Of a stretch of 64,000 nt of DNA, positions 52,994 through 62,037 are shown one piece after another. Every line of letters begins with the position of its first letter. The first letter of the stretch is position 1. This DNA comes from Paenibacillus lentus (lineage in GTDB: Bacteria; Bacillota; Bacilli; Paenibacillales; Paenibacillaceae): contig NZ_CP034248.1 in the NCBI RefSeq assembly GCF_003931855.1, forward strand, positions 1,178,001-1,242,000. Reading direction: 5' to 3'. Below the pieces are notes generated by a model. That model was not told where the DNA came from and made no database searches. It saw nothing but the letters and a program-made list of their open reading frames with translations. Both the position numbers and the translations under genes were made by a program.

Positions 52994-53103
52994 AAAAATC
53001 CGCGGCGTGAACAAATAGTGTTGTCATCCATAGACCTGTGCCGTTACCGTCCCTCATCCTTCTCATAGACTAATATGTAATATGATAAAGGAGGATGAGG
53101 ATA

Positions 53104-53334
53104 TTGGTTGAAGCCTATTATAATTGCCTGCATTGCAAAAATAAACGGGTTCGCATTTTGACCAGGGACGGTCGGCAATATACGGGAACAATTATGGACG
53201 TGGACTATAACAACGTTTATTTGCGTCCCGATGCCAGAGGGACTGTCAAAACCTCGGCATTCTATCCAGGGTTTTATGGGGGCGATATTTTAACGTTAAG
53301 CCTGTTTACGCTGTTGGCGATTGCTTTAATCTAA
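53104..53334 (+). CDS. Small Sm-like protein with a CxxC pair
   Basis: 76-aa protein from a TTG start with AAAGGAGG 9 bp upstream (an ATG at 53095 overlaps that site). The stretch RVRILTRDGRQYTGTIMDVD followed by YNNVYLRPDA resembles an Sm/LSm strand pattern. CLHC lies near the N-terminus and the C-terminus is a hydrophobic helix (LTLSLFTLLAIALI). It is probably membrane-associated. Function unknown; similar small proteins occur in other Bacillaceae. Followed by a terminator. Confidence 0.7.
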   Translation: MVEAYYNCLHCKNKRVRILTRDGRQYTGTIMDVDYNNVYLRPDARGTVKTSAFYPGFYGGDILTLSLFTLLAIALI

Positions 53335-53350
53335 AAAATATAACGATGAC

Positions 53351-53378
53351 ATAACTCTCCTTTAAAGGGGAGTTTTTG
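53351..53378 (+). terminator. Terminator after the Sm-like gene
   Basis: AACTCTCC and GGGGAGTT form the stem, then TTTGTT. Confidence 0.8.
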
Positions 53379-53586: not shown

Positions 53587-54708
53587 ATGATGCCGGTATG
53601 GCGTAATAGCTGCAAAAATCTGCTGATCATTTCGACGATCATCCTATCGACGATCATCCTATTAGGATGTTCTATTGCCGTAAGTACGTATTCCGGGGAG
53701 GCTGCTGTGAAGAACGAAAGGCCCTATACGGAGAAATTTATTACGAAGCATATGACGAATACGAACGGAACATTAGCGACATATTTGAAGCCTGCTATCT
53801 CAACGTACCCGGATATTGTTGCGGGCCGTGAGGCATTGTCCGAATCCTTAGGATTCTGGATGCAATATGCCGTTATGAGGCAGGACCATGCCTTGTTTGA
53901 CCGTAGCTACCAAGTATTGAAAGACAAATTTCTAACCCCGGAGAAATATATCGTATGGAAGCTGGAGCCGGATGGCCGGATTAAGGTAAACACGAATGCG
54001 CTTGGCGACGATCTCCGCATTATCGGCAGTTTGTTGGAAGCGTCAGAGCTTTGGAAGAAGGATGAATATTTAACCACAGCGAAGGAAATATCGGATACTT
54101 TGCAGAGGTATGTACAGAAAGAAGGTTATTTCGTAGACTTTCATGACTTTGCGAGACATGAGTCACCATCGACGCTTAGCTTGGTTTATGTAGATATCGG
54201 AGTGCTCAAATTAATGAGGGATAGGCAGCTTGTTGATTCGGGCGTATACGAGCAATATGCGCAGGTACTCTCCAACATGCCGGATGACGGCATATTCTAC
54301 CCAAAAACCTTTGATGTCCAGCAATTACAATATACTTTTGATGACCATGTGAATTTGATCGATCAATTGATTGTGGGCATTCACCTCGCGGCGATGGATG
54401 AGCCACCGACCGCTTTGATATCTTTTCTAAAACAAGAATTTCGTCAGTATAAAACCATTAAGGGACGCTACAACCGGGTAACCCGGACTGCGGAGGTCTC
54501 GTACGAATCACCTTCCGTCTATGGCTTGGCCATATTGCTTGCATTGGAATCGGAGGATAAGGAATGGGCAAAACAATTGCATAAACATATGATAACTCTA
54601 AAAAATAGGGACGCTTCCTACTCTGGCGGGTATGTATTCAACAAAAATACTCATTTCTTCGACAATGTTCTCCCACTACTTGCTGAAACGGCTTTGCAAA
54701 ATCCATAA
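53587..54708 (+). CDS. GH8-like lipoprotein of the exopolysaccharide operon (YdaJ-like)
   Basis: 373-aa exported protein with an (alpha/alpha) barrel pattern of the GH8/BcsZ-like type. Hydrophobic signal (NLLIISTIILSTIILLGC) ending in lipobox LLGC. Barrel features: ESLGFWMQYAVMRQDHALFD and INTNALGDDLRIIGSLLEAS-like helices, with Glu in SESLGF as possible general acid. In B. subtilis ydaJ heads the ydaJKLMN exopolysaccharide operon, and the downstream GGDEF and GT2 genes match that arrangement. It probably trims the nascent polymer (inference). Start chosen at ATG 53587; a GTG 6 bp earlier and an ATG 3 bp later are possible. Confidence 0.82.
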   Translation: MMPVWRNSCKNLLIISTIILSTIILLGCSIAVSTYSGEAAVKNERPYTEKFITKHMTNTNGTLATYLKPAISTYPDIVAGREALSESLGFWMQYAVMRQDHALFDRSYQVLKDKFLTPEKYIVWKLEPDGRIKVNTNALGDDLRIIGSLLEASELWKKDEYLTTAKEISDTLQRYVQKEGYFVDFHDFARHESPSTLSLVYVDIGVLKLMRDRQLVDSGVYEQYAQVLSNMPDDGIFYPKTFDVQQLQYTFDDHVNLIDQLIVGIHLAAMDEPPTALISFLKQEFRQYKTIKGRYNRVTRTAEVSYESPSVYGLAILLALESEDKEWAKQLHKHMITLKNRDASYSGGYVFNKNTHFFDNVLPLLAETALQNP

Positions 54709-54769
54709 TTTAGGGCGATTGTTTAGAAAGTGTATAGATTCATGCTGTAGAATTAAGTCATACAGGCTC

Positions 54770-54915
54770 GAAACTTCCGTTTATTTTATATTTTATGGCG
54801 GTGTGCCGCGGCACTTCTCGTATGGGCTTTTATATGGGAGTGCTTATTTTTTTACATCCATGTACAGTCTGCTAGACCCTCGTGGGCTGATGATGATAGA
54901 GAAGGAAGGTTGATT
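54770..54915 (+). other. Unassigned 200-bp gap with a possible coding remnant
   Basis: Between the GH8-like and GGDEF-like genes. One frame reads FYGGVPRHFSYGLLYGSAYF, then FTSMYSLLDPRG, up to a stop at 54911. It looks like the C-terminal tail of a membrane protein rather than random sequence, but has no start of its own and I cannot name it. It may be the remains of a deleted operon gene. Confidence 0.25.
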
Positions 54916-55791
54916 ATGAGGGGTAGAGTACCGACACATCGTATTACATCAGGCTATTTGATTCTTATTTTTATCGCGATGCTAGAGCAGTTTCTCCTCT
55001 TTCTTCATGTTTACCTTGAGCAAAGCTATACTGGGGCGGAGTTTGCCTTCAGCATCGTGGCTTTAGCGGCGCTTCTAATCGGGCTAGTGCTCCCTTTGGG
55101 GTTGTCCGTAGTTGGGGCGTTTGTGTTTTTGGTTAGCTATTTTGTCTGGCTGTCGACTTATGCGGAGCCGGATATTTTGGCATTCTCTTGGATTGTAGTC
55201 GTGCCGGCTAATCTCGCTATTGCCGCTTTAATCAAAACCGCTTTGATTCGCAGTAAAATTATCATAGAGCGCATGGAAGAGCTGCAGTATCGGGCTCCTC
55301 AAGTTGATCTCAATACGACGCTCGGTAATAAAGAGGCTTTGGCTGAGATCGTAGTGAAGCAAACCAATTTAGCCAAAAGATACTCTGAGCAATATAGCTT
55401 CTGCATGGCGATGTTCAAGATTGATTTCCTTCCCTTAGTGCAGGAATCGCTTGGTTCTCAGCGCTATGCTCAACTTCTAATGGAGTTGTCGAGCATCATT
55501 CAGCAGCAGATTCGGTATGAGGATTATAAATTTTCTTTAGATCGGGGACGCTTCATTATCCTCTGCCCAATGGCTAACCATGAATTTCTGCAGGCTTTAA
55601 CCGAGCGAATTAAGCAGGCCTTGTTGAACATACATTTTCTAGATAAAAAGGGTCAGCCCCTCAAGCTCGTTATTCGTGCGGGGGCCGTCGTGTTTCATAA
55701 GGAGCAATTCAGCAAATATAAGGATATCGATGCAGTCATTGCTGCGCTAGAAAGACATACGGAGACAGACCTTATCGGAGAATACATTTGA
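54916..55791 (+). CDS. Membrane protein with degenerate GGDEF domain and intact c-di-GMP I-site (YdaK-like)
   Basis: 291 aa. Four or so membrane segments at about 12-110 (LILIFIAMLEQFLLFLHVYL, VALAALLIGLVLPLGLSVVG), then a GGDEF-fold domain from about 135. The GGDEF signature is replaced by DRGRF (209-213), so no cyclase activity is expected. RYED at 200-203 is an RxxD I-site exactly five residues before it, as in c-di-GMP-binding GGDEF domains. In B. subtilis YdaK is a known c-di-GMP receptor that controls the EPS synthase. The ATG at 54916 has GAAGGAAGG upstream. Confidence 0.88.
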   Translation: MRGRVPTHRITSGYLILIFIAMLEQFLLFLHVYLEQSYTGAEFAFSIVALAALLIGLVLPLGLSVVGAFVFLVSYFVWLSTYAEPDILAFSWIVVVPANLAIAALIKTALIRSKIIIERMEELQYRAPQVDLNTTLGNKEALAEIVVKQTNLAKRYSEQYSFCMAMFKIDFLPLVQESLGSQRYAQLLMELSSIIQQQIRYEDYKFSLDRGRFIILCPMANHEFLQALTERIKQALLNIHFLDKKGQPLKLVIRAGAVVFHKEQFSKYKDIDAVIAALERHTETDLIGEYI

Positions 55792-55855
55792 TAGGATTTG
55801 CAGTTTGGGCAGGCAATGAATGGCCCTGGTTTTGCCGGAGGGAGGTGGCTGGATC

Positions 55856-56008
55856 TTGCTTATGACGGCGTATACAAGCTGGTTCATTCCACTGTGCATT
55901 GGAGTCAGCTTCATATTTGCAGTAACCGTGGTTATTCTGACGATTGCCATCCTTGCCTTTCGAGCCAGAGTAACCAAAAAGTATGATCGGGGGAATCTCA
56001 GTGGCTGA
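55856..56008 (+). CDS. Small membrane protein of the EPS operon
   Basis: 50-aa single-pass or re-entrant membrane protein from a TTG with GGAGGTGG 7 bp upstream; an ATG two codons later is possible. The hydrophobic helix is FIPLCIGVSFIFAVTVVILT, followed by IAILAF and a basic tail RARVTKKYDRGNLSG. Its stop overlaps the GTG start of the synthase gene, implying translational coupling and perhaps a small subunit of the synthase. No family recognised. Confidence 0.6.
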   Translation: MLMTAYTSWFIPLCIGVSFIFAVTVVILTIAILAFRARVTKKYDRGNLSG

Positions 56009-57296
56009 TTTTTTGTTGGTTTTTTGTATAATTAGCATCTGGATCGCTGTATTCCAATCGATCATCATGATGATCGGGGCCATCCGCTTCGTCTGGCGGC
56101 AAAGCCAAACACCGCTCGTGCTGCCTGCGGATATGGAGGATTTCCCTACGGTGACGGTAATCGTTCCGGCTCATAATGAAGAGCTCGTTATTGCAGCTAC
56201 AGCGAGACATGTCCTGCATTTGAATTACCCGGCGCATAAAATACAGTTTATCGTTGTCGCGGATAATTGCACGGATGATACAGCTGGCCGCCTCAAGGCG
56301 CTCAAGGCTCAGCCAGAGTACTGGCATCGGGATTTTTTCATTATGGAGCGCACAGGAACTGGCGGAAAATCGGGAGCGCTGAACGATGCGCTGAAGCATG
56401 CTGCCGGGGAATGGGTGTGCATCTTTGATGCCGATGCTGCACCGGAGAAAAATTCGCTGTTATTTCTTGTGCAAAAGGCGATGGAGGAACCGGAATTGTA
56501 TGGCGCGGTGTTCGGCCGCAACAAAGCGCGAAACCGGGAGCAGAACTTTCTCTCTCGGTGTATTAACCTGGAATTGGTGACCATGCAGCGTGTGCTTCAT
56601 ACCGGGATGTGGGAGCTGTTCAAGCTGGGGACGATTCCCGGAACAAATTTTATCATTAAGACGTCGCTAATCAAAGAAATCGGTGGCTGGGACGAGCAGG
56701 CGTTGACGGAGGATACAGCAATTTCTTTTGAAATCCTTTCCAGAGGCCAGCTTATCGCGCTTGCCTCGCAAGCTGAGGCTTACCAGCAGGAGCCGGAGCA
56801 GCTTTCGGTATATATGAAGCAGCGCGAACGCTGGGCCAAAGGCAATTACCAGGTGGTTCTGGATAATTTCCATCACTTGTTCAGGCCCTCCAGCTGGCGG
56901 ATCAAGCTGCATTTACTCTATTTTATGGCCAGTTACTTTTGGTTTTTGGTCACGATTGTGATTTCCGATCTGATCATTATGGTTAATGTCATTTATTGGG
57001 TTATGGCGTTATTTAAGCCCGAATTGACGTCACCTTTCCATTTTGCGGGAGATGTATATGTTTATCTCATCATAGCTTGGGCGCTGATGTATTACTTGTA
57101 TGTGCTGCAGATCAATCTGGCACTCGCTTCGGATATCGGACAGAGCAACATTCGGAATTTTATTTTGTCCTGTATCACTTATTTTACTTATGCGCAGTTA
57201 TTCCTCGTGATTTCAGTCCGCGCGTCTTACAATATGATCATGGACAAAATTATGCATCGGGAGAGCAAATGGTATAAGACGCAGCGATTTGATTAG
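56001..57296 (+). CDS. Processive family 2 glycosyltransferase, polysaccharide synthase (YdaM-like)
   Basis: 431-aa membrane synthase. N-terminal membrane helix, then the GT2 domain: TVTVIVPAHNEELVI, VVADNCTDDT, CIFDADAAPEKN (DxD, UDP and metal), EDTAISFEILSRG (catalytic Asp) and QRERWAKGNY (the Q-x-x-RW motif of processive synthases). Three or four C-terminal membrane segments follow (VTIVISDLIIMVNVIYWVMA, IIAWALMYYLYVL). No PilZ domain, so c-di-GMP control would come from the GGDEF-like neighbour. GTG at 56001 has GGGGGA upstream. Last gene of the operon. Confidence 0.92.
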   Translation: MADFLLVFCIISIWIAVFQSIIMMIGAIRFVWRQSQTPLVLPADMEDFPTVTVIVPAHNEELVIAATARHVLHLNYPAHKIQFIVVADNCTDDTAGRLKALKAQPEYWHRDFFIMERTGTGGKSGALNDALKHAAGEWVCIFDADAAPEKNSLLFLVQKAMEEPELYGAVFGRNKARNREQNFLSRCINLELVTMQRVLHTGMWELFKLGTIPGTNFIIKTSLIKEIGGWDEQALTEDTAISFEILSRGQLIALASQAEAYQQEPEQLSVYMKQRERWAKGNYQVVLDNFHHLFRPSSWRIKLHLLYFMASYFWFLVTIVISDLIIMVNVIYWVMALFKPELTSPFHFAGDVYVYLIIAWALMYYLYVLQINLALASDIGQSNIRNFILSCITYFTYAQLFLVISVRASYNMIMDKIMHRESKWYKTQRFD

Positions 57297-58470: not shown

Positions 58471-59274
58471 CTACACCAGCCTCTTGCGGATCGAGCCGGA
58501 GATCATGTCAATGATCGTAATCATGATAATGATCCCGAGCAGAATAATGCCGACTCGCTCCCAATTGCGGGAGCTTAAAGCAAAAATGAGCGGGGTTCCT
58601 ATCCCACCAGCGCCGATGATGCCGAGAATCGTCGCGGAGCGAACATTAATCTCGAACCGGTACAAGGTATAGGAGAGGAAGCCAGGAAGCACCTGGGGAA
58701 TTACAGCAAACCACATGATTTGCAAGCGGCTTGCCCCTGTAGCAATTAACGCTTCAATTGGGCCTTTGTCCAGGTTCTCCACCTCATCGGCGAACAGCTT
58801 GCCCAGCATGCCGACGGAGTGCAGCCCAAGCGCTAGCACCCCGGCGAAGGAGCCCGGGCCGACGGCCTTAATGAACAGAATGGCCATAATGATTTCCGGA
58901 AAGGTGCGAATGAAGCTTAGTAACATTTTTCCCGAACCGGACACCCATTTGGAGGAGCTCATATTGGTAGCCGCCCAGAAGGCAAAGGGAATGCAGACTA
59001 CAGTTGATATAAAGGTGCCGAGCATGGATATCGCCAGCGTATCCAGCAGCCCTCGAAGTAAATCTTCGCCGTCGGGTAAGTAGACATAATCCCAGTCTGG
59101 CGAGAAGATTCCGGCCAGGATTGCTTTGGAGATTTGTCCGGCCGTTTCTTTAATGCCTGTATAAGGTATACCGGCGAAAGCCCAAATATAGACGATGGCA
59201 AGCGCTGCGTAAATGAGCCAGCGATAAGCTGGTTTTTTCGGCTTGCGCATGATTTTGTTTCCTGATTTTGTCAT
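58471..59274 (-). CDS. phnE: Phosphonate/phosphite ABC transporter permease (second PhnE)
   Basis: 267-aa permease with five or six membrane segments. It carries the EAA loop ASRLQIMWFAVIPQVLPGF and the PhnE-type VGPGSFAGVLALGLHSVGML and IGAGGIGTPLIFALSS. It overlaps the first permease gene by 4 bp (ATGA). With the other permease it probably makes a heterodimeric channel. Last gene of the operon. Confidence 0.93.
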   Translation of the reverse strand: MTKSGNKIMRKPKKPAYRWLIYAALAIVYIWAFAGIPYTGIKETAGQISKAILAGIFSPDWDYVYLPDGEDLLRGLLDTLAISMLGTFISTVVCIPFAFWAATNMSSSKWVSGSGKMLLSFIRTFPEIIMAILFIKAVGPGSFAGVLALGLHSVGMLGKLFADEVENLDKGPIEALIATGASRLQIMWFAVIPQVLPGFLSYTLYRFEINVRSATILGIIGAGGIGTPLIFALSSRNWERVGIILLGIIIMITIIDMISGSIRKRLV

Positions 59275-60071
59275 AACAGCTTCTCCCGCAGCTTCATGCT
59301 TACATAATCAATCACAAGCACGATAGCCAATGTAAAAATAATAATAACGCTAGTCTTGTCATACTCCAGAAAACCTAAAGTTACCTCGTAATAATGCCCG
59401 ATACCACCGGCACCGACCAGGCCGAGAATGGCCGCCGCACGCACGTTGATTTCGAAGGTATACAGCACGTAGGAGGCAAAATGCGCTTGAATCTGCGGAA
59501 TGACGGCGTATGAGATCCGCTGCAGTGGATTTGCGCCGACGGAGGTCATCGCTTCCAGCGGCCCGTGATCGATCGTCTCTAATGCCTCGTAGGTCAGCTT
59601 GGCGATCAGGCCCATGGAGAAGACTGCCAGAGCGAATATGCCGGGCAGCGGCCCAAGCCCAAAAATAGCGACAAACAGGGCAGCCAGCAACAGATCCGGG
59701 ATGGTGCGCACAAGGTTAAGCAGGAAACGAACTGGATAGTAAATCCAGCCGGATCTTGTCAAATTGCTGGCGCACAGCAGGGCGACCGGAATGGCGCCGA
59801 GCGCTCCAAGCGTCGTTCCTACGAGGGCCATACGAATCGTCTCCAGCATCGCGTCTGTAATATTGTTGATATAGCTCCACTTCGGGGGAAACATCTCCCG
59901 TAGCAGATCGAGCATATTAGGAATGCCGGCCACGAGTTCACCGATTGTTGACTCCGTCTGAACCGCGCTGCCCCAGAGCAGAAGCAGGATAATGACGACG
60001 GTCAGACCATGCTTCAACCGACTGGGGGCCTTTGGGCGGGCGTGAATAGGGAGGCTCGGCTTCGCATTCAT
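59271..60071 (-). CDS. phnE: Phosphonate/phosphite ABC transporter permease (first PhnE)
   Basis: 266-aa permease similar in layout to the next. Signatures [40 protein letters not shown] (EAA loop) and [20 protein letters not shown]. It overlaps the ATPase gene by 4 bp (ATGA). The ATPase and binding protein lie upstream. Confidence 0.93.
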
Positions 60072-60841
60072 ACAACCCGCTCCTCCAGCAGCTCATCCTG
60101 TTCAATCGGCCGTCCATATATTGAGGCAAATACGTTGTCGGTTGCCTCTGACACCGGACCGTCAAAAACCACCTCTCCCGCTCGGAGCCCGATAATCCGC
60201 GTAGCGTATGCTCTTGCCAGATCGATGAAGTGCAGGTTGACGATCGTCGTAATGCCGAGTTCCTGATTAATCCGCTTCAGATCGTCCATGACCTGTTTGG
60301 TCGTCAGAGGATCGAGAGAGGCCACTGGTTCATCCGCGAGGATGATTTTGGCTTCCTGAGCAAGCACGCGCGCAATGGCGACCCGTTGCTGCTGCCCGCC
60401 AGACAGCTGGTCGGCCCGGATATAGGCTTTATCGGCAATATTAACGCGGCGCAGCGCTTCAAAGGCGATGTCGGTGTCCTCCTTGGGGAATAGCCCAAGC
60501 AAGGTTCTTAATGTGGAATGGTAACCGACTCTTCCGGCCATGACATTGCGCAGCACGGTAGAGCGCTTGACCAGATTGAAGCTTTGAAAGATCATGCCAA
60601 TATCACGGCGGATGGTGCGAAGCTGTTGTCCCGAAGCTTGCGTAATCGATTTTCCGCCAATGCGGATATCTCCTTCGGTAATGTCGTGCAGTCGGTTCAT
60701 CGAACGAAGCAACGTGGATTTTCCCGCTCCCGACAAGCCAACGATGACGACGAATTCGCCCTGGGAAATAGACAGATTAATTTGGTTTAGACCCTTGGTG
60801 CCATTGGGATAGGTTTTGGATACATTCGTCAGTTCTATCAC
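60068..60841 (-). CDS. phnC: Phosphonate/phosphite ABC transporter ATPase PhnC
   Basis: 257-aa ATPase. Walker [18 protein letters not shown]-loop [16 protein letters not shown], signature [14 protein letters not shown], Walker [15 protein letters not shown] and H-loop [12 protein letters not shown] at 60841 has AAGGAA upstream at good spacing; the ATG 12 bp earlier sits on that site. In the PhnC family the region after the Q-loop ([20 protein letters not shown]) is characteristic. Confidence 0.93.
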
Positions 60842-60908
60842 GTATATGATCATTCCTTATTATTGTTTTATCGCGCAATTCTGCTTAACATCTCTAATAA
60901 CAAGCACA

Positions 60909-60942
60909 GCCAGTCATAGTGCGGCAGCACTCCAACTGGCTT
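60909..60942 (-). other. Intercistronic stem-loop between phnD and phnC
   Basis: AGCCAGT and ACTGGCT form the outer stem, with a GC-rich middle and no U-run. It probably tunes binding-protein against ATPase expression. Confidence 0.55.
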
Positions 60943-60991
60943 GCTCATTTCACGTACGGTGTTCCAGAGGTTCCAATTCCAAATGATCCGC

Positions 60992-61981
60992 TTACTCTGT
61001 TTTTACTTTCTCCCCGTATTCACGCACGATATCGAAGGTGCTGTCTTGCGATTTCACGTAGCCTTCGTGCGAGTAAATTTCTTGAATGATCGCTCGGCCA
61101 GCTTCATCCTTGCCAATATCGATGAAGGCGCTAGCGATCTTCTCGCTCCACTCCGCGTTCATGTCCGTACGCACGGTGACTGTATCGTTCGGGATTGGCT
61201 CGGTGAACGTCAGAACTTCTGTGTCCTCAAATACTGTCGGATAATCGCCTTTCACGATATTTCGTGCATCCTGGAAAATCGCCGCTGCATCGACATCGTC
61301 GTTCAATACGGCGAGCACGCCTTGGTCATGTCCCTTTACCGTAATGGCTTGAACGTCCTTGAGCGGGTCAAGTCCAGCTTCCAAAAGCTTGCCTGCGGGC
61401 CATACGAACCCTGCGGAGGATGTTACGTTCTGATACGCGATACGTTTGCCCTTCAAATCGCTGACGGATTGAATGTCGGAATCCTTCTTGACGATGATCA
61501 TCGCCTTGTAGAAATCGACAAGCTCTTCAGTAGGAGCACCCGTATCATCCTGTACTCCGAAGCGTTGAGCTTGCAGAATAACATCGGCAGCGCCCTTCTC
61601 TTTGGCTAAGACATAAGCGGTTGGGGGCAGGAAGCCGACATCTACCTTTTTGGAGGCCATTGCCTCAATAATTGTGTTGTAGTCGGTGGATACGCTGACT
61701 TTGACCGGAATGCCCAGACGATCTGTCAGCAGTTTTTCAAGCGGCTTGGCTTTCGCTTCGAGCGTGTCTGCATTTTGAGATGGGACGAATTGAACAGTTA
61801 ACGTTTCCGGTACATATCCAGTAGCTTCTGGTGTATTTGCAGGCTGGTTCTCCTGTTGATTAGCGGGTTGGTTCGCCGCTGCATCCTTGCCGGTATTGCT
61901 TACCGTGGCATTGGAATTGCAAGCGCTAAGGAAGGCGACGGATAAGAACAATGGCAGAATGAATCGGGTTATTTTTCTCAA
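60992..61981 (-). CDS. phnD: Phosphonate/phosphite-binding lipoprotein PhnD
   Basis: 329-aa lipoprotein. Signal peptide with lipobox LSAC; the mature part starts LTVQFVPSQNADTLEAKAKP, the typical PhnD beginning, and continues with VSVSTDYNTIIEAMASKKVD and GFLPPTAYVLA. The C-terminal part (VWPAGKLLEAGLDPLKDVQ) also fits. TTG at 61981 has GGAGG 8 bp upstream and is preferred to the ATG at 61999. First gene of the operon; a PHO-box-like repeat lies about 60 bp upstream. Confidence 0.94.
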   Translation of the reverse strand: MRKITRFILPLFLSVAFLSACNSNATVSNTGKDAAANQPANQQENQPANTPEATGYVPETLTVQFVPSQNADTLEAKAKPLEKLLTDRLGIPVKVSVSTDYNTIIEAMASKKVDVGFLPPTAYVLAKEKGAADVILQAQRFGVQDDTGAPTEELVDFYKAMIIVKKDSDIQSVSDLKGKRIAYQNVTSSAGFVWPAGKLLEAGLDPLKDVQAITVKGHDQGVLAVLNDDVDAAAIFQDARNIVKGDYPTVFEDTEVLTFTEPIPNDTVTVRTDMNAEWSEKIASAFIDIGKDEAGRAIIQEIYSHEGYVKSQDSTFDIVREYGEKVKTE

Positions 61982-62037
61982 ACGGTATGACCTCCACAAA
62001 TCTTTTTTGAATTGCTCATTTAACTATAAAAGAGGTT

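Follow-up and report, generated by a model that had tools for sequence, protein, structure and literature searches.

A compact Paenibacillus operon that probably encodes a cyclic diguanylate-gated polysaccharide synthase with a single-helix subunit

The 64,000-nucleotide stretch of Paenibacillus lentus DNA analysed here (the window) comes from a genome of 5.29 Mb in one contig. Its + strand carries, at positions 53587-57296, a single operon of four open reading frames (ORFs): a family 8 glycoside hydrolase (GH8), a membrane protein with a degenerate GGDEF domain, an ORF of about 50 codons, and a family 2 glycosyltransferase (GT2). The operon probably encodes a compact polysaccharide synthase gated by cyclic diguanylate (c-di-GMP), in which the GT2 would work with the small single-helix protein as its subunit, the GGDEF-like protein would be a YdaK-like receptor switch, and the GH8 would trim the product. 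The original prediction had recognised this gene set at this place and had read it as a minimal variant of the Bacillus subtilis ydaJKLMN theme. Both points stand: the GH8, GGDEF and GT2 proteins give Pfam matches above cut-off, and the operon keeps the GH8/receptor/GT2 logic of that system, has no YdaL or YdaN, and has a GT2 type of its own. The earlier account was right, yet understated, in that it missed the conservation of the small protein under selection and the existence of Lactobacillales-like relatives whose receptor has no I-site.

The gene grouping recurs in operons of the same layout, here called compact. The GGDEF gene, the small ORF and the GT2 gene occur together in all 16 named relatives of the locus (15 Paenibacillus and one Fontibacillus), and 12 of these 16 also have the GH8 gene. 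No GH8 match was found in the fetched flanks of the compact operons L024, L025, L030 and L033. All four genes are present in 18 of 18 further loci, among which is counted L039, which has the same GGDEF core as L022 and is probably its contig. This conservation in 16/16 named and 18/18 further loci argues that the grouping is not due to chance.

The receptor (54916-55791, + strand) is YdaK/PssE-like, with four predicted N-terminal helices followed by the degenerate GGDEF domain; ATG 54916 fits an AGGAAGG site better than does TTG 54910, the start given in the ORF list. A Pfam scan matches it to PF00990 with 44.8 bits against a cut-off of 23.8. A sequence search of the PDB with the receptor gave no match at E 0.001. 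Its AlphaFold2 model, with a predicted local distance difference test (pLDDT) score of 62, contains the four N-terminal helices and a domain that Foldseek matched to diguanylate cyclase/GGDEF structures. As had been predicted, the active-site motif GGDEF is replaced by DRGRF (55540-55554, + strand), and the I-site RYED (55513-55524, + strand; R202 to D205 counted from TTG 54910) lies exactly five residues before it. All 35 compact receptors, that of the window among them, retain this RxxD. These have 32 distinct cores, since L022 and L039, L043 and L044, and L049 and L051 share GGDEF cores and all were counted. RxxD also stands at the aligned place in all 21 receptors of the larger, yda-type systems. 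The motif GG[DE]EF, on the other hand, is found in none of the 35 compact, 21 yda-type or 21 streptococcus-like rows (the last group is described below).

In B. subtilis, the YdaK substitutions R202A and D205A abolish exopolysaccharide, and a cyclase is also required, according to excerpts of PMC5422440; the Listeria protein PssE binds c-di-GMP with a Kd of 0.79 uM and is required for exopolysaccharide, according to excerpts of PMC4125290. By analogy with YdaK and PssE, the right prediction is that the receptor would bind c-di-GMP at its RxxD without making c-di-GMP. A source for the ligand within the same cell is plausible, since the genome encodes eight other GGDEF proteins, of which seven have a GGDEF, GGEEF, SGDEF or GGEEL motif; the eighth, L007, has no motif match.

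The locus was originally said to have no obvious ydaL or ydaN counterparts. This holds for the locus and extends to the genome as a whole, where neither was found with Pfam models or with local profiles. PF03170 (BcsB) has no match in the genome, B. subtilis being matched as a control, and PF10096 (YdaL) gives only matches below cut-off, a model that also misses the protein of locus L055. PF03170 proved insensitive, in that four yda-type genomes without a match (G097, G173, G239 and G248) hold BcsB by local profile; for this reason, local profiles for BcsB (A5) and YdaL (A6) were built. All four controls score at least 663 bits, although the sequences of two of the four are inside the profiles. 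Across the 28 genomes of compact type, that of P. lentus included, A6 finds no YdaL, and A5 finds no BcsB apart from a 34-residue, 17-bit match to a BcsB tail in G134.

These genomes come from a search of 398 Bacilli genomes with a GT2 profile. At E 1e-70 the profile matched 71, which fall into two separate groups by best E value: 28 of compact type, at or below 7.4e-165, and 43 of yda/pss type, from 2.2e-101 to 1.0e-85. Five of the compact-type genomes (G062, G135, G199, G146 and G252) were classed by GT2 score alone, their loci being unread. PF03170 matches none of the 28 versus 39 of the 43, and the remaining four are positive by local profile, so that BcsB accompanies the yda-type GT2 in 43/43 genomes. 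A Fisher's test of this association was discarded; it had been computed before the BcsB correction and treated related genomes as independent. One genome, G110, has BcsB without this GT2. The two types can occur within one genus, as in genus code g26 of family f23, with two genomes of compact and six of BcsB type.

The BcsB loci differ from the compact ones in what lies between the genes. GH8, GGDEF and GT2 are present in 20 of 20 such loci (L055-L074), and in none of them does the operon strand between these genes hold anything that matches the small protein with an E below 0.1. Directly before the GT2 there is instead, in 24 of 25 yda-type loci, an ORF of 472-603 residues with a C-terminal hydrophobic stretch; none was found for L060. 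Two of these ORFs were tested, and one is a DUF2334 protein while the other has no Pfam match. One further locus (L125, in G335) has a second yda-type GT2 beside a YdaL-like ORF, and the 15 kb fetched there contain neither BcsB nor a receptor nor a GH8. In L055-L059, of another genus code in the same family, and in L112, of the same order, the set comprises GH8, GT2, BcsB and GGDEF genes, in an order that ends, like that of Listeria pssA-E, with the GGDEF gene.

The compact operon also has relatives outside Paenibacillaceae, called streptococcus-like or Lactobacillales-like here, a placement suggested in part by neighbouring genes. A match in genome G297 (locus L054) pointed to one family, and of its 196 genomes 38 gave matches to this GT2 at E 1e-80. 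The 20 loci read from this family (L075-L094) all contain a pseudo-GGDEF gene, the small ORF (E 2e-7 to 6e-4) and the GT2, which is broken in L094. A GH8 is seen in 19 of 20 by weak profile match and was confirmed by Pfam in the two tested; the nearest structures to the streptococcus-like GH8 tested are glucanase/chitosanase. Two loci from two more family codes, L119 and L120, likewise have receptor, small ORF, GT2 and GH8, the small ORF of L120 being a weak match (E 0.0014) to the streptococcus-like profile alone. The GT2 genes of L094, G062 and G504 in the streptococcus-like family are broken or interrupted by stops, and the operon seems to be decaying in some of these genomes.

None of these receptors has the canonical I-site. 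RxxD at the aligned place is found in 0 of 21 streptococcus-like rows and in neither of L119 and L120, thus in 0 of 23; in the L120 receptor an RxxD does occur, shifted by one residue from its usual spacing. Two streptococcus-like pseudo-GGDEF proteins were tested, and neither matched Pfam at E 0.01. A search of 20 streptococcus-like genomes with PF00990 gave no match in 19, a model that is blind to the operon's own pseudo-GGDEF, so that degenerate copies could be missed. The lone PF00990 match among the 20 genomes is G424:C1:191142-191606 (105.5 bits); the operon receptor of that genome (L076) has no I-site. A parallel is offered by the pel loci of streptococci, which are not known to use c-di-GMP and whose PelD has no GGDEF domain, according to excerpts of PMC7112168. 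Since, in the operon studied here, the domain is kept while just the I-site is lost, it can be argued that the pseudo-GGDEF domain is also a structural part of the synthase.

This branch is the chief support for the rival explanation that fares best, although an unlikely one: that the GGDEF-like protein is mainly structural, or senses another ligand, and that in Paenibacillus, too, c-di-GMP does not act as the physiological switch. Retention of a receptor with no canonical I-site in the Lactobacillales-like relatives, and the lack of a PF00990 match in 19 of their 20 tested genomes, are what this explanation would expect. The same genomes can, however, be read the other way, because I-site loss accompanies the lack of detectable cyclases in those 19 (G424 has one), and one of the two further loci, L120, has its RxxD merely displaced. 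In the compact receptors, moreover, RxxD is invariant with the catalytic motif gone, and the P. lentus genome has its near-canonical GGDEF proteins. These observations favour a receptor switched by c-di-GMP, and it is most likely that the synthase is gated by c-di-GMP here and ungated in the Lactobacillales-like relatives.

The small protein (55856-56008, + strand; 50 residues from a TTG start at 55856, or starting at ATG 55862) was found in 35 of 35 compact loci read, the window included. In an alignment of 17 members (A1), the residues W, F, P, F, L, L, R, K, Y and R are invariant. The ratio of nonsynonymous to synonymous rates (dN/dS) was calculated for the window and L019-L034, over the core before the KKYDRG motif, which stops short of the part of the ORF that holds the GT2 ribosome-binding site; 88 of 136 pairs were dropped for unusable dS. 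The mean is 0.16 and the highest value 0.51, with none of the 48 usable pairs at or above 1, and the differences in the core number 1391, 708 and 2680 at codon positions one, two and three. The small ORF is under purifying selection and is a real gene.

Each of 31 distinct sequences of the small protein has a single hydrophobic span whose C-terminal side is the more positive one, from which an N-out/C-in orientation is predicted by the positive-inside rule. NCBIfam gives no match to it, a PDB search no convincing match, and Pfam three weak matches, each in one or two of 17 members, the lowest E being 0.0006 (DUF6724, 2/17). The small protein thus forms a protein family without a convincing match in family libraries. 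Comparison of the compact and streptococcus-like profiles gives a probability of 97% with E 1.2e-10 over 43 columns. The cross-branch score of 47.1 compares with maxima of 17.8 in 200 full-column shuffles and 29.5 in 200 helix-only shuffles. By these profiles, the two branches have homologous small proteins; that of the streptococcus-like branch has a different C-terminus.

Profile comparisons were also made with possible sources of the small protein. The C-terminal end of YdaL gives 28% over 26 columns, that of BcsB 66%, yet over just 14 basic columns, and IcaD 7% over 27 columns (hhalign). With the compact profile, the YdaL and BcsB tails score higher than all of 150 class-preserving shuffles, and IcaD higher than 149. 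Many YdaL and BcsB tails share with the small protein a helix that ends in basic residues. Such a pattern is common to the YdaL and BcsB tails and IcaD, which explains their standing above the shuffles, and none of the three is favoured as the origin. The slot of the small protein in the operon is that of YdaL in the yda order, which is suggestive merely.

The GT2 gene (56001-57296, + strand) most likely starts at GTG 56001, which gives an 8-base overlap with the small ORF. Ahead of this start, inspection places a ribosome-binding site at 55989-55993 (+ strand), the GGGGG of GATCGGGGGAA, inside the KKYDRG codons of the small ORF. Relatives have a similar site ahead of the GT2 start, within the DRG codons, and the 8-base overlap is found in 13 of 17 loci, against one of four bases in L029; in L022, L031 and L032, 1-4 bases separate the two genes. 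This arrangement raises the possibility that the small ORF is a mere leader that couples GT2 translation and whose peptide has no function, and conservation of KKYDRG may indeed partly reflect the ribosome-binding site. Such a leader is nevertheless very improbable, given the low dN/dS of the core ahead of KKYDRG, the invariant W, F and P, which fall outside the ribosome-binding site, and the streptococcus-like homologue with its different C-terminus. We infer instead that the small protein is a membrane subunit of the synthase.

The GT2 has the DAD, TED and QRERW motifs of a processive synthase (DAD/TED/QxxRW in 34 of 34 compact rows), and the Pfam scan matches it to PF13641 (92.4 bits; cut-off, 27) and finds no PilZ domain in it. 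In its structure model (pLDDT 64), a single N-terminal helix precedes a mixed GT-A-like domain, and the C-terminal helices are long; Foldseek relates the model to PcManGT, BcsA and hyaluronan synthases. A tree was built from 85 GT2 rows: 34 compact, 20 streptococcus-like, 25 yda-type and 6 IcaA. It leaves out C_L042, whose core is the same as that of another row, L094 with its broken GT2, L108 (one of seven IcaA) and L119-L126. Each group lies on one side of a branch, with support of 92/92 for compact, 100/99 for streptococcus-like, 99/96 for yda-type and 100/100 for IcaA, and a single split separates compact plus streptococcus-like from yda-type plus IcaA. The outgroup branch is very long and carries a long-branch warning, which leaves the position of the root less certain than the groups. 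The mean identity of the compact rows is 49% to streptococcus-like, 35% to yda-type and 22% to IcaA rows. Least probable of all is that the operon encodes an ica/pga-type poly-N-acetylglucosamine synthase with the GT2 as IcaA/PgaC and the small protein as a shortened IcaD/PgaD: the best NCBIfam match of the GT2 is indeed TIGR03937 (PgaC_IcaA, 147.7 bits), and a small membrane partner recalls PgaCD, whose activity depends on PgaD according to excerpts of PMC8461298, but that score is far under the 422.3-bit cut-off and is surpassed by that of the one yda-type GT2 tested (185.4 bits), the compact rows are closer to yda-type than to IcaA rows, the low IcaD score is equalled by one in 150 shuffles, and TIGR03932 (the IcaD/PgaD subunit) has no match at E 0.01 in the genome.

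The GH8 gene (53587-54708, + strand, with GTG 53581 as an alternative start) matches PF01270 with 37.8 bits against a cut-off of 24. By phmmer, the protein matches 3ren (E 6.6e-26) and 6r2m (E 9e-22); we take the latter to be PssZ. Residues E88 and D261, presumably the catalytic pair, are invariant in 13 of 13 sequences (alignment A4). The original description of this protein as a lipoprotein is borne out in the window by an N-terminal signal with the lipobox LLGC; it does not extend to the family, the canonical lipobox occurring in the window only among the 13 sequences of A4. By analogy with PssZ and BcsZ, the GH8 may act outside the cell in trimming or release of the polymer.

Together, these features suggest the following mechanism. 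The GT2 would build the chain from a sugar nucleotide on the inner side of the membrane and move it outward. The single-helix protein of about 47-50 residues, translated together with the GT2, would be a membrane subunit of the synthase and would supply whatever membrane-scaffold function YdaL and YdaN (BcsB) have in the larger systems; the membrane anchor of BcsB is the part required for BcsA activity. As in the YdaK and PssE systems, c-di-GMP made by the cell's other GGDEF proteins would bind the I-site of the receptor and turn the synthase on, and the GH8 would act outside the cell, freeing or trimming the product. In this scheme, c-di-GMP binding, activation of the synthase, the part played by the small protein and the identity of the polymer are inferences.

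As to the polymer, our guess is an N-acetylhexosamine chain, possibly of N-acetylmannosamine (ManNAc). The Listeria Pss polymer is a ManNAc chain with galactose, according to excerpts of PMC5422440. A gene resembling UDP-N-acetylglucosamine (UDP-GlcNAc) 2-epimerase adjoins 20 of 21 streptococcus-like loci, L054 included. It is split over two frames in L075, lies on the GH8 side in L078, and was not seen in L094, which is near a contig end; the one tested matches the wecB model with 521 bits. No such gene was found in the fetched stretches of L119 and L120. The adjacent epimerase, a feature of the streptococcus-like loci only, hints at ManNAc. All 19 compact-type genomes tested have a UDP-GlcNAc 2-epimerase somewhere, an enzyme so common that this is not decisive.

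Several observations weigh against a c-di-GMP-gated synthase of this kind. The two structure models are of single chains and of modest confidence. The likeness of the small protein to IcaD and to the C-terminal helices of YdaL and BcsB is weak. In the streptococcus-like branch the pseudo-GGDEF protein persists without an I-site, so it must have some function besides ligand binding. Finally, four sampled congeners of P. lentus have neither the receptor nor the GT2, which indicates that the operon is accessory and its distribution patchy.

More broadly, the chances are about even that these operons form a previously undescribed lineage of synthase-dependent exopolysaccharide systems, one that spans Paenibacillaceae, a second Bacilli family and several Lactobacillales-like families and whose essential single-helix synthase subunit of about 47 residues replaces YdaL and YdaN. 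One branch of this lineage would be gated by c-di-GMP; in the other, streptococcus-like branch, the receptor would have lost its site along with the cyclases and would now be a permanent structural part of a synthase that is ungated or gated in some other way. A literature search, with most subscription journals outside it, gave no title or abstract opening that points to the compact operon, the small protein or the streptococcus-like version.

Upstream of the operon lies a 79-residue LSM-like ORF (53095-53334), which scores 20.8 bits with PF01423, below the cut-off of 23.4. Its product has a hydrophobic C-terminal stretch, and it adjoins the operon in L019-L021 alone, the three closest of L019-L052. 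A terminator-like stem (53353-53374, + strand), found by a consensus scan alone, stands between this ORF and the operon. A promoter scan found sites no more numerous than in shuffles, and Rfam at its gathering threshold has no match in the window, hence no c-di-GMP riboswitch was seen. The ORF on the other flank of the operon is presumably DUF423-like. Farther on, at 58471-61999 of the - strand, two permeases, an ATP-binding cassette ATPase and a substrate-binding protein, as judged from translations read by eye, resemble a phosphonate/phosphite transporter of the PhnCDE type.

The compact operon suggests that three parts, a receptor, a GT2 and a single membrane helix, make up the core of a c-di-GMP-gated Gram-positive synthase. 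Should the small protein be enough to stand in for both BcsB/YdaN and YdaL, so small a system could be reconstituted to study GT2 activation by a degenerate GGDEF protein. The branches with and without an I-site form a natural experiment on what gating contributes and make the mechanism testable, and the streptococcus-like genomes would gain a candidate polysaccharide locus that family libraries cover poorly.

Comparison with known systems places the compact operon among several relatives by design. BcsA-BcsB cellulose synthase likewise pairs a processive GT2 bearing QxxRW with a membrane partner; the compact GT2, unlike BcsA, has no PilZ match, and no BcsB was found. The Gram-positive pelDEADAFG operon, as excerpts of PMC7112168 describe it, resembles the compact operon in having a receptor with a degenerate GGDEF domain and RxxD, and in having streptococcal copies adapted to lack of c-di-GMP. 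It differs in its synthase, and streptococcal PelD has lost the GGDEF domain, whereas the streptococcus-like receptors keep the domain without the I-site. In the Lactobacillus acidophilus gtsA-gtsB-pdeB operon, a GT2, a small partner with two transmembrane segments and a degenerate receptor from c-di-GMP turnover share one operon, according to excerpts of PMC6123363; that receptor, however, is a degenerate EAL protein, and the two operons are likened by description, not by sequence. PgaC-PgaD and IcaA-IcaD also combine a GT2 with a small membrane partner. The compact GT2, in contrast, falls below their family cut-off, its small protein has one helix rather than two and no convincing similarity to IcaD, and its receptor is a separate protein. 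Compared with B. subtilis ydaJKLMN and Listeria pssA-E plus PssZ, the compact operon has no detected YdaL (DUF2334) or YdaN/PssD (BcsB), adds a membrane protein of about 50 residues, and has a GT2 in a separate group. With both of these systems it nevertheless shares a GH8, a GT2 of the same superfamily, and a multi-helix degenerate GGDEF receptor that keeps RxxD five residues ahead of the lost GGDEF.

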